Positions 33,318 to 51,927 of a stretch of 64,000 nt of DNA are shown piece after piece (position 1 is the first letter of the stretch; each line of letters opens with the position of its first letter). This stretch comes from Halobacillus yeomjeoni (GTDB lineage Bacteria; Bacillota; Bacilli; Bacillales; Halobacillaceae). The stretch is from contig NZ_JAIVAI010000007.1 in assembly GCF_020171525.1 (NCBI RefSeq), positions 1-64,000 on the forward strand. Direction: 5' to 3'. The translations under genes and the position numbers were made by a program. The notes beneath the pieces are model-generated. The model saw only the letters and a program-made list of their open reading frames with translations. It did no database searches and was not told the DNA's origin.

Positions 33318-34578
33318 ATAACAGATCTTTTTTTTGAACTTGTTGATAGTTATTAGCCTCTTTAAAGTACATGGCTGATTTTTTATACAATCGCTTCTCG
33401 TAAAAAATGGAAGCCAGCATTTCTACAAAGTATTTGTAATCTTTATATTCATTAAGTTCACGGAAGGTTGGAATGATTTCATTTTCCAGTTTGTTAATAA
33501 ACTCTTCGGTATGAGTGGACTCTTGCAGCATATTTCTCAAAATATAAAATTTGTGTTTATATTTTGTAAATCCGTGTTTTTTTGCTTCTTTTTCTCCCTC
33601 TTCAATATACTTCATACATTTAGTTCTATCCCCACTGTAAAAGCTGGTCAACGCCAGAAGGTAGATCGTACTAGACATGAATGAAGATTCTTTAGTATCT
33701 ATTTCATACGCTAAAAATAGGTAGTGATAAGCTTTCTCAAACTTTTCCTGGTTAATATAGTTGATCCCGAGATTATGATATATTCTCCGTTTTTCTGTCT
33801 CAGGAATATGGTATTTAGCCAACTTTAATATTTTCAGCAAATATTCTTCTGCTATGTGATAAGCATTTAATGAGTTGTAATTAATAGCAATGATTAAGTA
33901 ATTATCAATCATTTTGGAATAATTAAATGATTTTTGATACCCCTCTAATGCTTCTTGAGCGTAGTAGGTAGATTCTACAAAAGAGCGGGTTTTCGAGTAA
34001 GCAAGGGCTAAATGGAAAAACACTTCATAGTCTTGAAAAGGAATTTTATCCATCACTTTTTTTGCTTTTAAAAATTGATGCAGGGCATCTTTGGGTTGGG
34101 CTGTCAATAAGTAATGAATACCCAGAGTTTTAAAGTATAAGAATTGGTATACAGAAGAAGAGCCGTGTAAGATGTTTTCCAGCTTATTCAGGTCATTTTT
34201 TGAGATAGGTTTATATGTAGTAGTCATTTTTTGACGGACCTGAATCACTGTATATAGGTTTGATAGTTCTATATTGTGGTTTTCTTGAAGATCCTGTTCA
34301 CATTCCTTACTTAACTCTTCAATTAACTCGTTGTCCTTAAGCTGGATAGCTTCATGCCAGTCTAATAATTTCTGGTAAATTCTTTCATCGAATTCCTGGT
34401 TGATATCTGTAAGCTTTATGTTCAACCGTTCTCCTATCAATCTGTAAATTTCATCACTCGCATTGATTGAATTGTGTTCGATTTTACTTAAATAGGAGAC
34501 GGAACAGATGCCTGTAGCAAGCTCCTCTAACGTCATATTCTTAAATTTACGATGCTGCTTTATTAACGAACCTTTCAA
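33316..34578 (-). CDS. Orphan RRNPP-type regulator (Xre HTH plus TPR repeats)
   Basis: A 420-residue protein with an N-terminal HTH (LIKQHRKFKNMTLEELATGICSVSYLSKIE) followed by about 300 residues of TPR-like helical pairs (for example YHNLGINYINQEKFEKAYHYLFLAYEI). This is the NprR/PlcR/Rap-like architecture that senses imported peptides. TTG at 34578 is chosen, with AAAGGAG 9 bases upstream, over TTG 34605. Unlike the similar protein at 48830-50113, no small secreted-peptide frame was found beside it, so its ligand must be encoded elsewhere or be non-cognate. Confidence 0.8.
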   Translation of the reverse strand: MKGSLIKQHRKFKNMTLEELATGICSVSYLSKIEHNSINASDEIYRLIGERLNIKLTDINQEFDERIYQKLLDWHEAIQLKDNELIEELSKECEQDLQENHNIELSNLYTVIQVRQKMTTTYKPISKNDLNKLENILHGSSSVYQFLYFKTLGIHYLLTAQPKDALHQFLKAKKVMDKIPFQDYEVFFHLALAYSKTRSFVESTYYAQEALEGYQKSFNYSKMIDNYLIIAINYNSLNAYHIAEEYLLKILKLAKYHIPETEKRRIYHNLGINYINQEKFEKAYHYLFLAYEIDTKESSFMSSTIYLLALTSFYSGDRTKCMKYIEEGEKEAKKHGFTKYKHKFYILRNMLQESTHTEEFINKLENEIIPTFRELNEYKDYKYFVEMLASIFYEKRLYKKSAMYFKEANNYQQVQKKDLL

Positions 34579-48713: not shown

Positions 48714-48833
48714 TTAAGTTTGTTCTACAGCTGATGGACGTGGATGGGTTTCCACTGCCTCATCATGTGTTAATGGAGCTGCAACTGAAAGTAAAATTCC
48801 AGCAGCTGCTATAAAAGCTATAAACTTTTTCAT
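48714..48833 (-). CDS. Candidate secreted signalling pro-peptide (NprX-like)
   Basis: A 39-residue frame too short for routine gene calling. It starts MKKFIAFIAAAGILLSVAAP, a Sec-type signal sequence with two lysines and a hydrophobic core, then LTHDEAVETHPRPSAVEQT. Its ATG overlaps the stop of the TPR regulator as ATGA, and AGGAGG lies 9 bases upstream. Position, size and layout match nprX, phr and papR genes, whose exported C-terminal pieces are re-imported to bind the upstream regulator. The sequence shows no resemblance to the NprX heptapeptide SKPDIVG, so the specificity is different. The mature form cannot be told; a piece within HPRPSAVEQT is the natural guess. Confidence 0.75.
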   Translation of the reverse strand: MKKFIAFIAAAGILLSVAAPLTHDEAVETHPRPSAVEQT

Positions 48834-50113
48834 AACATGATACCTCCTAAATGAGAGTGTTTATTTAATAAATTAATTGCTAACCTTAGATATTCAGAAG
48901 ATTTTTTATACATCCTCTGCTGTTCCAATAAATCAGATAAAAACTTAGAATATCTTATTACATAGACATGCTGGTTTTTATCTTTGAAATAAGGGATTAC
49001 TTTTTTTTCTAAATAATTGATAGTGTCCAAAGAGTTATCGATCAATTTGCTATAAACTTCAAAATGATATTCGTGCGATTCTGAAGGAAAGGACGAAAGT
49101 TTAGCTTTTCCTTTATCAATCCATTCTTTACATCCTTCATTATCCTTAATTCTAAAATGTTCTATGATTAATCCGTGAATGATATTTAACAACTCATACA
49201 AATCAAATGAAGTTTCGGATTCCTGAGAATACTCTAAACTTTTCTTATAATTAATAATAGAAGATTGATGATTTCCTATTCTTGATTCTAGTACAGCAAT
49301 ATTAATATAAACCAACTTTAACTGCTGATTATCCTTAGTTTGGGTAGCTATCTTACGTGCTAAATGATAGTTTTCAAGAGACTTTGCATAGTCCTTCAAT
49401 CTGTTGTAGCTAATCCCCAGTATTATATGACAATCAGCGCTTTTGGCTAGATCATAATGATTTTTATAAAGTTCTAATGCTTTGTCAGCATAATATACCG
49501 AAGCTGATACATGATGGGCTTGGCTAGCACTTAATGCTAAGTGATAATATAAATCACTGTATTCCCAATTTTCAATATGAAGTTTAGAAACATAATTTTT
49601 TGCTTCCATTATTTTTTGGAAGGATTCTTCAAAATTCCCCTTATAATATTGAAGAAGCCCATACACTAGGTGATAGTAAAACTTCATCTCTTCATCAAAG
49701 GTATCGCTATATTGGCGTATACTTTCCCATACTTCATAAGCTTTCTCTACTTCATTTTTCGAAAGAAAGCTTCGAATTCTATACAATTCATAGAAGATAT
49801 GTAAATGATGATTCTCGAACGTCTCTTTCTGTTCCATCAACTTTTCTTTTAAAAGTTCAGCCTCATCCGTACGTTTAAGTACAATTGCCTCATACCACTC
49901 TTTAAGTTTTTCTTTAGAAGGGTGACTAAAAGAAGAGTCATTAAAATCTAGACCAAGACGTTCGTAAAGAAGTTCTAACACTTCAAAAGCAGGAACCGTC
50001 TGATCATTTTCGATCTTAGAAAGATACGCCGGTGAGATAATCCCATCGGCCAGCTGATTTTGAGTTAAACCTTGCTTGACGCGATGAAACCGAAGTATTT
50101 TACCATATTCCAT
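48830..50113 (-). CDS. NprR-like peptide-sensing transcriptional regulator (RRNPP family)
   Basis: A 427-residue protein close in length to B. cereus NprR (423). An N-terminal Xre HTH (GKILRFHRVKQGLTQNQLADGIISPAYLSKIENDQTVP) is followed by TPR-type helices across residues 80-420 (for example YYHLALSASQAHHVSASVYYADKALELY and KDYAKSLENYHLARKIA). These would form the peptide-binding solenoid. ATG 50113 with AGGTG upstream is preferred to GTG 50122. Its 3' end overlaps a small secreted peptide gene, and a thermolysin-type protease is divergent. Control of the protease by the peptide-bound regulator is inferred from the nprR-nprX-nprA precedent. Confidence 0.85.
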   Translation of the reverse strand: MEYGKILRFHRVKQGLTQNQLADGIISPAYLSKIENDQTVPAFEVLELLYERLGLDFNDSSFSHPSKEKLKEWYEAIVLKRTDEAELLKEKLMEQKETFENHHLHIFYELYRIRSFLSKNEVEKAYEVWESIRQYSDTFDEEMKFYYHLVYGLLQYYKGNFEESFQKIMEAKNYVSKLHIENWEYSDLYYHLALSASQAHHVSASVYYADKALELYKNHYDLAKSADCHIILGISYNRLKDYAKSLENYHLARKIATQTKDNQQLKLVYINIAVLESRIGNHQSSIINYKKSLEYSQESETSFDLYELLNIIHGLIIEHFRIKDNEGCKEWIDKGKAKLSSFPSESHEYHFEVYSKLIDNSLDTINYLEKKVIPYFKDKNQHVYVIRYSKFLSDLLEQQRMYKKSSEYLRLAINLLNKHSHLGGIML

Positions 50114-50128
50114 TTTCCACACACCTAG

Positions 50129-50140
50129 TTGATCAACTGT
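50129..50140. promoter_or_regulatory. Short perfect palindrome at the regulator promoter
   Basis: AGTTGATCAACT is a 12-bp perfect palindrome 15 bases upstream of the regulator start. It could be an operator, but palindromes this short also arise by chance. Confidence 0.3.
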
Positions 50141-50236
50141 CGACTTGTCCGAGTAACGTCTCTTTCAAATCTATATTTAGAATACATGTTCGACTGGTAA
50201 ATTTCAACTAGAGTGACAGGTTTCCCAAGTCTGCCT

Positions 50237-50325
50237 AATTTTGACGCTTAAGAGGCTTTTTTCACCCTTAACTTTCACAGATTTATAGTCAGAATATTAT
50301 GATATATTAGAAAAGCGTCAAAATT
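50237..50325. promoter_or_regulatory. Inverted repeats flanking the protease promoter region
   Basis: AATTTTGACGCTT (50237-50249) and AAGCGTCAAAATT (50313-50325) are perfect 13-bp inverted copies, 63 bp apart, on either side of the presumed protease promoter (a TATTAT-like -10 at 50295-50300). The right copy ends 16 bases before the protease start. They are the best candidates for binding sites of the divergent NprR-like regulator; the assignment is inference. Confidence 0.5.
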
Positions 50326-50340
50326 CATAGGAGGGATTCG

Positions 50341-51927
50341 ATGAAGTGGAAATCTGTAATGGCAACCTTTGTATTAGGAACGAGTTTAGTGTCTGGCGGG
50401 GCAGTAACTCACGCAGAGGTTGGAACGGATTTAGAAGGTAAGAGAGATGTGTCGCACTTTGTGAAAGAAGAGTTGAAGGTAAGTAAAGTGATGTCAGAAA
50501 AAGGGGTCAAGCAGTTCATCAATAAGAATAAAAATAAGTTCAATCTTGATGCAAATCAGGATCTTTCCTTATTAAAAACAGAAAAAGATGAATTGGGCAT
50601 GACTCACTATACATTCAACCGAGTTGTTTCTAATGTACCGGTAGCAAATTCGAAAGTGGTCGTACATACCGATAAAAACGGCAATGTAACGTCTATTAAT
50701 GGTGAGTTCCATGAAGATGCTCCGAGAAATATCAAACAGCAAAAACAATTGAACAAAAAGGATGCATTGAGCCTTGCGTGGGAGCACATCGAAGTGAGCA
50801 GGGAAGATGCAGATAAAGTTCAAAAGAGTGAGCTTGGAGAAGACTTCAATACTCTGACAGAGAACTCTGACCTTGTTGTTTTTCATGAAGATGGAAATTA
50901 TACACTTGCTTATCATGTTGAACTTCAATTCGCACAGCCATATCCAGCGAACTGGCAGATGTTCATCAATGCTGAAAATGGTGAAGTCCTTAAGGCTCAG
51001 AACGTTGTCAAGCATGCGACTGGAACAGGTACAGGGGTATTAGGTGATACAAAATCAGTAAACACATATTACTCAAATAACACCTATTACTTGTACGATA
51101 CGACTAAACCGATGAGCGGGGTTATTGAAACATTTGATAACTATAACGGTGGTTACAGCAGTCTTCCGGGGTATTACGTGACAGATTCAGGTAATACATT
51201 CCATGCGGAGTGGCAGAAGGCAGCCGTGGATGCTCACTATTATGCTGGTGAAGTGTTCGACTATTATTATGATACTTTCGGCCGGGTAAGTTTTGATGAT
51301 CAAGGTGCTACCATCCGATCCACTGTGCATTACGGAAACAATTACAACAATGCTGCATGGACAGGGAATCAAATGATTTACGGGGATGGTGATGGTTCCA
51401 CATTCACTTATCTTTCCGGAGCTGATGATATCGTAGCTCACGAACTTACACACGCAGTTACAGATCGTACAGCTCAATTAGTTTATGAAAATCAGTCGGG
51501 TGCTTTGAACGAATCATTTTCTGATGTATTCGGTTATTTCGTAGATTCTGAGGATTGGCTGATGGGTGAAGATGTATACACTCCAGGACAACCGGGGGAT
51601 GCTTTACGTTCCTTATCTGATCCGAACGCTTATGGCCAGCCGGATCATATGAGTGAATACGAAAACCTTCCGAACACGGAAGAAGGAGATTGGGGAGGCG
51701 TCCACACCAATAGTGGTATCCCTAACAAAGCCGCTTATTATACGATCAATAGTCTTGGAATCACAAAAGCTGAAAATATCTACTACCGTGCACTTACGGT
51801 ATATTTGACTCCAAACAGTGATTTCTCTGATGCAAGAGCAGCTCTGGAACAATCTGCTCAAGATCTATATGGAACAACTGAAGTAAACGCCGTTTCCCAG
51901 GCATGGGATGACGTAGGAGTCTATTAA
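50341..51927 (+). CDS. Secreted neutral metalloprotease (thermolysin/bacillolysin, M4)
   Basis: A 528-residue preproenzyme. The signal peptide runs to about residue 25 (cleavage after VTHA). An FTP/PepSY propeptide occupies about 30-220. The M4 catalytic domain has the zinc motif HELTH at 367-371 and ESFSD at 391-395, the Glu being the third zinc ligand. VHTNSGIPNKAAYYTI near 455 supplies the catalytic His region. It degrades extracellular proteins. AGGAGGGATTCG precedes ATG 50341. Divergence from an NprR-like regulator suggests cell-density control, as for nprA of B. cereus. Confidence 0.95.
   Translation: MKWKSVMATFVLGTSLVSGGAVTHAEVGTDLEGKRDVSHFVKEELKVSKVMSEKGVKQFINKNKNKFNLDANQDLSLLKTEKDELGMTHYTFNRVVSNVPVANSKVVVHTDKNGNVTSINGEFHEDAPRNIKQQKQLNKKDALSLAWEHIEVSREDADKVQKSELGEDFNTLTENSDLVVFHEDGNYTLAYHVELQFAQPYPANWQMFINAENGEVLKAQNVVKHATGTGTGVLGDTKSVNTYYSNNTYYLYDTTKPMSGVIETFDNYNGGYSSLPGYYVTDSGNTFHAEWQKAAVDAHYYAGEVFDYYYDTFGRVSFDDQGATIRSTVHYGNNYNNAAWTGNQMIYGDGDGSTFTYLSGADDIVAHELTHAVTDRTAQLVYENQSGALNESFSDVFGYFVDSEDWLMGEDVYTPGQPGDALRSLSDPNAYGQPDHMSEYENLPNTEEGDWGGVHTNSGIPNKAAYYTINSLGITKAENIYYRALTVYLTPNSDFSDARAALEQSAQDLYGTTEVNAVSQAWDDVGVY

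Follow-up and report, generated by a model that had tools for sequence, protein, structure and literature searches.

Background

In the NprR-NprX quorum-sensing system of the Bacillus cereus group, as set out in PMC4147580, nprR lies upstream of nprA and nprX follows directly after nprR. NprR is reported to activate only together with its peptide and to bind around the -35 box of nprA (PMC4147580, PMC4970707), and the NprR-peptide tetramer has been described with two DNA-binding sites (PMC4970707); according to the 2014 review, the DNA sequence recognised by NprR-NprX was still to be determined (PMC4147580). The RRNPP relative AimR, when free of peptide, occupies two inverted boxes separated by a 25-bp spacer, and AimP releases it (PMC6458997). 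Two NprR-NprX systems have been counted on the plasmids of Priestia koreensis FS-1 (PMC10075063), and nprR was named among the quorum-sensing genes of three Halobacillus strains in a report whose passages on them contain no analysis of a peptide (PMC12167742). Here we describe a regulator-peptide gene pair that stands beside a secreted protease gene in Halobacillus yeomjeoni (assembly GCF_020171525.1), within positions 1 to 64,000 of contig NZ_JAIVAI010000007.1; this whole stretch of 64,000 nucleotides is referred to as the window.

The pair is probably an NprR-type (RRNPP) switch of a sister subfamily, which would place a regulon of extracellular hydrolases under peptide-dependent control. 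What is new here is a candidate two-box operator, and we found no report of it, or of the Halobacillus regulator-peptide pair, among the open-licence papers listed in our searches. A two-box site of near-fixed spacing in several genera would make DNA recognition by NprR-type regulators, and the bridging of DNA by their tetramers, testable. We also provide a predicted regulon, and the peptide core lets the signalling groups of protease-producing, salt-loving bacteria be read from genomes.

Results and discussion

A conserved peptide gene overlaps the regulator gene

The regulator gene (48830-50113, - strand) encodes 427 residues from the ATG at 50113, or 430 if read from an upstream GTG, and its product matches Pfam HTH_3 (helix-turn-helix, HTH) and TPR_12 (tetratricopeptide repeat, TPR), both above the cut-off. 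Its stop codon overlaps the next start codon in the four nucleotides ATGA. The gene starting there (48714-48833, -) encodes a secretion-like pro-peptide of 39 residues, MKKFIAFIAAAGILLSVAAPLTHDEAVETHPRPSAVEQT, with the conserved core ..ETHPRP.. near its C-terminus, and a terminator-like stem of 9 pairs with a T run stands 3' of it (48656-48631, -). The gene of a secreted M4 (thermolysin-type) protease is transcribed divergently (50341-51927, +; Pfam Peptidase_M4, Peptidase_M4_C, FTP and PepSY). These elements had been picked out in an earlier note on this DNA, and open reading frames, Pfam and a stem search bear all of them out.

Among 22 genomes of the genus, the window's own included, a regulator match is present in every one; in a single genome (G014; genome and locus numbers are our own) it consists of pieces with stops, next to an intact peptide frame. 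Every one of the 22 named loci retrieved together with the regulator is from Halobacillus (regulators 59-74% identical), and the earlier proposal of an NprR-type regulator/pro-peptide pair beside a secreted protease in a relative outside the B. cereus group is supported. The counts that follow use 33 distinct intact regulators, i.e. that of the window and others 59-74% identical, drawn from the genus and from two others in the family. Identical regulators were merged and the broken G014 regulator (L023/L024) was left out before counting; the peptide and operator counts also leave aside ten loci, namely the paralogues L002 and L025-L031 and the NprR-clade loci L129 and L130.

A frame of 38-42 residues overlaps the regulator stop by 4 nucleotides at all 33 regulators, with a GTG start in three. 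Near the C-terminus of each of these peptides a proline follows H, Y, W or F, and in 32/33 a second proline follows R, Q, E or K, the spacer residue being absent in L041; the core in these peptides is (H/Y/W/F)P(R/Q/E/K)P, with ETHPRPSAVEQT as the core region of the window peptide and the form ETYPRPLVVDQI in relatives. The pooled ratio of nonsynonymous to synonymous rates (dN/dS), taken from 17 equal-length and non-independent pairs, is 0.22 in the peptide frame as against 0.75 and 3.3 in the shifted frames. Conservation of the frame and purifying selection had been proposed beforehand as the check on this gene, and by genome comparison the 39-residue peptide gene is real and under constraint. 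A chance open reading frame is ruled out by the conservation in 33/33.

The N-terminus of the peptide is basic and hydrophobic. Neither SKPDIVG nor a close variant occurs in any of the 33 peptides, that of the window included, in agreement with the earlier claim that it differs from the B. cereus-group signal; it is less isolated than that claim made it, because an xHPxP-type core is shared with many relatives. A distinct signalling specificity of the window peptide is likely. Since its ending, HPRPSAVEQT, differs from the commoner ..PRPLV.. forms, the specificity may also differ from that of its neighbours.

At the level of the order, a regulator match at E 1e-45 or better was found in 101 of 397 genomes and 36 of 135 genera, and by a filter of our own a secretion-like frame lies just 3' of the regulator in 51 of 55 more distant relatives. 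The pattern [DE]x0-2[HYF]P is present in 43 of these 51 peptides (shuffled mean 8.3, maximum 16) and [HYF]PxP in 28 (mean 1.9, maximum 7), where the shuffles, here as in the operator tests, preserve single-letter composition only. Tandem repeats are seen in the peptides of some relatives, for example (FAGEAEHPDPTSI)n, (SEPDHPKIV)3 and (AAIDQHPDPTASVIQV)n, and such repetition of the core suggests that the mature peptide region includes xHPxP. At the NprR-clade locus L129, too, a short frame contains ..YEFHPPFRG.., and it is tempting to align SKPDIVG with DHPKIV and EHPDPT.

Other peptide frames were observed beside related regulators. At the Halobacillus paralogues L025-L028 (HTH-TPR, 26-28% identical) a secretion-like frame ends in GDELPFSN or GDELPLSN/GDELPPSN and represents a candidate for a separate peptide system. 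At L163, on the Mesobacillus foraminis plasmid NZ_CP033045.1, a related regulator is followed by a 137-residue repeat precursor, (..DEEFPPPLAP..)n, and a non-ribosomal peptide synthetase gene lies near this regulator.

A two-box candidate operator

Two boxes lie 52 bp apart in the regulator/M4 intergenic region. Box A is TTTCCCAAGTC (50221-50231, +), and its TTCCCAAGT is exact in the upstream regions of all 33 regulators of the family. Box C is CTTTCACAG (50272-50280, +) and overlaps the -35-like TTCACA of a promoter-like site of the protease (TTCACA, 18 nucleotides, TATGAT; 50274-50303, +; a consensus match only, 10/12). At a fixed distance from box A, box C reads CTTTC(A/C)CA(G/A) in 23/33 regions and CTTTCATAG in 8, a pattern that was written after inspecting the sequences, and it is degenerate in 2 (L009 and L022), the genomes of which have no M4 orthologue. 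Between the boxes stands a central element, CTTAAGAGG (50247-50255, +), and a CTT(T/A)AAG-type central element occurs in most of the 33 regions. Towards the regulator the region holds a promoter-like site (TTGAAA, 17 nucleotides, TATTCT; 50179-50207, -; a consensus match only, 9/12) and, just 5' of the regulator start region, a palindromic element, TAGTTGATCAACT (50126-50138), of which TAGTYGATCAACT is found in 33/33 upstream regions.

The pair of boxes is also found away from the regulator. Upstream of relocated M4 genes it is kept about 53 bp apart in 8/8 cases, with box A exact in 7/8, and shared remnants of the intergenic region were recognised by eye upstream of 6/8. Similarly, an inverted pair at 54-55 bp is present in 15 of 18 close orthologous secreted-subtilase promoters, a count from which the subtilase paralogue L160 (51-54%) was excluded. 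In other genera, TTGGGA..TCCCAA at 53-55 bp occurs in 11 of 40 non-redundant upstream regions, some of which are still related, as compared with a mean of 0.0005 and a maximum of 1/40 in 2000 rounds of shuffling. Two boxes of the TTGGGAA/TTCCCAA type, 52-55 bp or about five turns apart, are on these grounds a candidate operator of the regulator.

A profile, R1, was built from 29 sites, and with it we searched the 22 genus genomes as well as 22 from other genera; both strands of one site were merged, and 15 training sites were excluded from the untrained count. Within the genus, 11/22 genomes yielded a total of 15 sites at E<1e-3 outside the training set, and a fitting neighbour was found at 13/15: SLT transglycosylases (5), second-group subtilases (4), a first-group subtilase (1), SdpA (1), a family-5 (oligopeptide-type) binding protein (1) and the regulator/M4 region (1), with none assigned for the other 2. 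Pfam was run on the subtilases L133, L068, L073, L078, L189, L190, L192, L194, L209, L214 and L217, the transglycosylases L178 and L195, the SdpA of L188, L177 and the M4 protease of L219; other neighbours were judged from sequence. At E<0.1, the sites in the window's own genome comprise that of the trained subtilase, those of the subtilases L189 and L194 and of the transglycosylase L195, and one overlapping the end of an open frame (L196).

Two of these neighbours widen the range of possible targets in individual species. At L188 (G015:C4) a two-box site lies about 300 nucleotides upstream of an SdpA gene (Pfam PF17418), and this suggests a connection of the switch with a sporulation-delaying-type system in that species. 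At L177 (G010:C1) a two-box site precedes the gene of a family-5 solute-binding (oligopeptide-type) lipoprotein and possibly links the switch to peptide uptake.

A regulator homologue at E<=1e-12 exists in 13 of the 22 genomes from other genera, and in 9 there is none; R1 reaches E<1e-3 in G062 and G058 only. The G058 site is chance-like and lies within an open frame of 531 codons in a genome with no homologue. In G062, four sites reach E<1e-3 and one more falls just short at 0.0011. Its best site is directly 5' of a 26%-identical regulator homologue, which faces a divergent subtilase and is followed by a 42-residue MKK-type frame without the exact xHPxP core; of the remaining sites, one stands before a subtilase, one before an M4 protease and two have no assigned neighbour. 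A site in G067 (E 0.03) lies likewise between a regulator homologue and a subtilase. Both regulator-subtilase sites come from genomes outside the training of R1.

Several observations weigh against these boxes being the operator of the regulator. The training sequences of R1 had been picked for the hexamers, and G062 is the only one of the 13 homologue-bearing control genomes to reach E<1e-3; besides G062 and G067, the 11 genomes that have distant homologues give no clear site, so not every homologue has the operator. Any hexamer at all is present in only 18/40 upstream regions of relatives, the pair is missing in 29/40, and no pair was found at the NprR-clade loci L129/L130 or at the paralogues L025-L029. 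A single 11-mer box occurs at chance level in the window's own genome (11 matches as against 14 for controls), one of these matches preceding a secreted subtilase (Pfam). The boxes are direct in the regulator/M4 region and inverted elsewhere, although each is nearly palindromic (TT-GGG-AA), which may explain how one box can point either way. Finally, the M4 and subtilase promoters of G014 retain the boxes although its regulator is broken, and a third regulator could use them.

Linkage to secreted proteases

The earlier note held that the arrangement mirrors nprR-nprX and nprA, and in this respect it is not supported. The M4 gene is not downstream of the regulator-peptide pair: it is divergent and on the 5' side, whereas at the NprR-clade loci L129 and L130 it lies downstream on the same strand. 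The link is loose as well: 16 of the 22 genus genomes, the window's own counted, have an M4 orthologue (73-78% identical, own copy aside), which adjoins the regulator in 8 of them and has another location in 8, and in the remaining 6 genomes none was found. Considering the 33 distinct regulators, M4 stands beside 12, on several branches and in the sister genera, and not beside the other 21. As the adjacency is spread in this way, it probably dates back to an ancestor, M4 having moved or been lost later.

M4 was considered as the sole target and rejected, since an orthologue of at least 73% identity is missing in 6/22 genus genomes and the regulator is intact in all six. Another M4 gene (42-48%) is among the listed matches for five of these six, and none for G010. 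In the same genus set (G000-G021), 6/22 genomes are without the M4 orthologue and 6/22 without the first subtilase (E 1e-80), never both, in numbers too small for significance. At seven of the eight loci viewed in other genera, L066 being the exception, a divergent subtilase faces the regulator, assigned by Pfam at L068, L073 and L078 and from sequence at L072, L075, L076 and L080.

Identity of the regulator

The AlphaFold2 model of the regulator is confident, with a predicted local distance difference test score (pLDDT) of 89.3. Its best match among solved folds is apo NprR (5dbk_B; Z 33.9, root-mean-square deviation (rmsd) 2.5, 348 residues aligned to the model), followed by Rap (4gyo_B; Z 32.1, rmsd 3.8, 347 aligned), and the match to AimR is weaker (Z 19.2). 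Two general features of RRNPP systems are present, i.e. a TPR receptor with an N-terminal HTH and a short pro-peptide gene adjoining the receptor gene.

In a tree calculated by maximum likelihood from 81 sequences and 348 columns, with RapH as sole outgroup, NprR was represented by the 4GPK fragment, because the order and class sets that were sampled yielded no close B. cereus-group NprR. NprR clusters with L129/L130 (100%) and the Halobacillus clade (98%) is placed elsewhere, so that the regulator falls outside the NprR clade of this tree; deeper nodes have 63-80%. A joint clade (100%) unites the Halobacillus clade with three relatives, including the regulator of the Priestia koreensis plasmid. 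Seventeen NprR residues with peptide, Spo0F, lock, dimer or tetramer contacts, as named in PMC4970707, agree with the 4GPK numbering used. The window protein keeps 2/17 (W79 and Y223) and 1/4 Spo0F contacts in an alignment of about 20% identity, a test which discriminates weakly because the NprR-clade L129 itself keeps only 6/17. Matches to the regulator are 24-32% identical on plasmids and 23% in phages, and matches to the NprR fragment on plasmids are about 23% identical. On the whole the system probably operates in the manner of NprR-NprX, and we regard it as a sister subfamily rather than as a strict NprR member.

A second HTH-TPR regulator is encoded in the window at 33349-34572 (-) and is 25% identical to the first. 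No peptide-like frame was found downstream of the loci of this type (L002, L030 and L031), and matches similar to it lie about 13-18 kb from the first regulator in most genomes of the genus.

Proposed mechanism and alternative explanations

The sequence itself provides the genes, the conservation and constraint of the peptide, the boxes with their spacing, the retention of boxes by relocated M4 genes and the sites beside homologues in two untrained genomes. Building on these, we propose that the 39-residue precursor would be secreted and then cut, and that the TPR domain would bind a short peptide around the xHPRP core after its re-import. With peptide bound, the regulator would sit on both boxes, probably as two DNA-binding dimers joined in a tetramer, the downstream box overlapping or adjoining the -35 region. 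It would activate several secreted subtilases along with the M4 protease, and perhaps also the regulator gene itself; the secreted proteases would probably be switched on when cells are crowded. Peptide-loaded bridging and activation are proposed by analogy with the NprR tetramer and the binding of NprR at the nprA -35 box. We give about an even chance to the wider generalisation of a sister subfamily present in many Bacillaceae genera, with xHPxP pheromones, a tetramer-bridged two-box operator that moves with the proteases, and an extracellular-hydrolase regulon reaching a peptide-binding transport protein and an SdpA-type gene in some species.

With regard to the sign of control, the main rival is release of repression, in which the peptide-free regulator would repress the proteases and leave the DNA on binding peptide, as AimR does at its two inverted boxes. 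A repressor could well sit at box C, where it overlaps the -35-like hexamer; a second box five turns upstream, however, also suits an activator, and NprR, the closest fold, activates only with its peptide, which makes this rival unlikely in our judgement. Somewhat less probable still is a true NprR-NprX orthologue that has diverged in sequence, with peptide-free, Rap-like control of Spo0F included. Such an orthologue would share the architecture, the best fold match and the retained W79 and Y223, and the P. koreensis plasmid regulator from the sister group is counted as NprR-NprX in the survey PMC10075063. The tree nevertheless joins NprR to L129/L130 apart from the Halobacillus clade, the protease is on the opposite side, and few of the NprR residues and Spo0F contacts are kept, which is the weakly discriminating test described above.

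It is improbable, a little more so than orthology, that the boxes serve another conserved exoenzyme regulator, with the peptide regulator as a mere target that controls something else. Binding of the boxes by the peptide regulator is itself deduced, and G014 keeps them despite its broken gene; yet in several genera the regulator genes of this family are preceded by two-box sites, which were detected blindly in G062 and G067, and the nine homologue-free control genomes contribute a single site at E<1e-3, lying inside a coding frame of G058. Least probable, to a degree that we regard as slight, is a secreted peptide of other use (e.g. antimicrobial or chaperone) which merely overlaps a regulator sensing something else. 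Peptide lengths and processing are deduced and leave some room for such a use, but the position 3' of the receptor gene, the secretion-like start and the tandem core repeats in relatives are features that known RRNPP pheromone precursors also have (PMC9765709).

Comparison with known systems

The Priestia koreensis plasmid system (NZ_CP061869.1) resembles the window locus in its regulator, which is 32% identical and belongs to the sister group, and has a peptide with ..SEEEFPEPTVAQ..; no protease adjoins it within the 9.3 kb shown, and no box hexamer is present in the 285 bp examined upstream of its regulator (L092). The TPR fold (4gyo_B) and a downstream peptide gene are shared with Rap-Phr, whereas Rap proteins are without the HTH that the window regulator carries (PMC9765709). 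With the phage system AimR-AimP (arbitrium) the locus has in common an HTH-TPR receptor and an operator in which an unusually long spacer, of 25 bp in that system, separates two inverted boxes (PMC6458997). AimR, however, is the weaker fold match, its box sequence is different, and the two inverted 6-bp boxes at 25 bp that characterise it were not found here, the boxes being 52-55 bp apart from start to start with a spacer of 46-49 bp.

The differences from NprR-NprX of the Bacillus cereus group lie in the separate clade, the 2/17 residues, the xHPRP core in place of SKPDIVG, the 4-nucleotide gene overlap, and a protease gene that is divergent in the window and elsewhere or not found in 14/22 genus genomes. 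With NprR-NprX the locus nevertheless shares a regulator of HTH and TPR with the same fold, a small secreted-peptide gene directly 3' of it and a link to an M4 protease.

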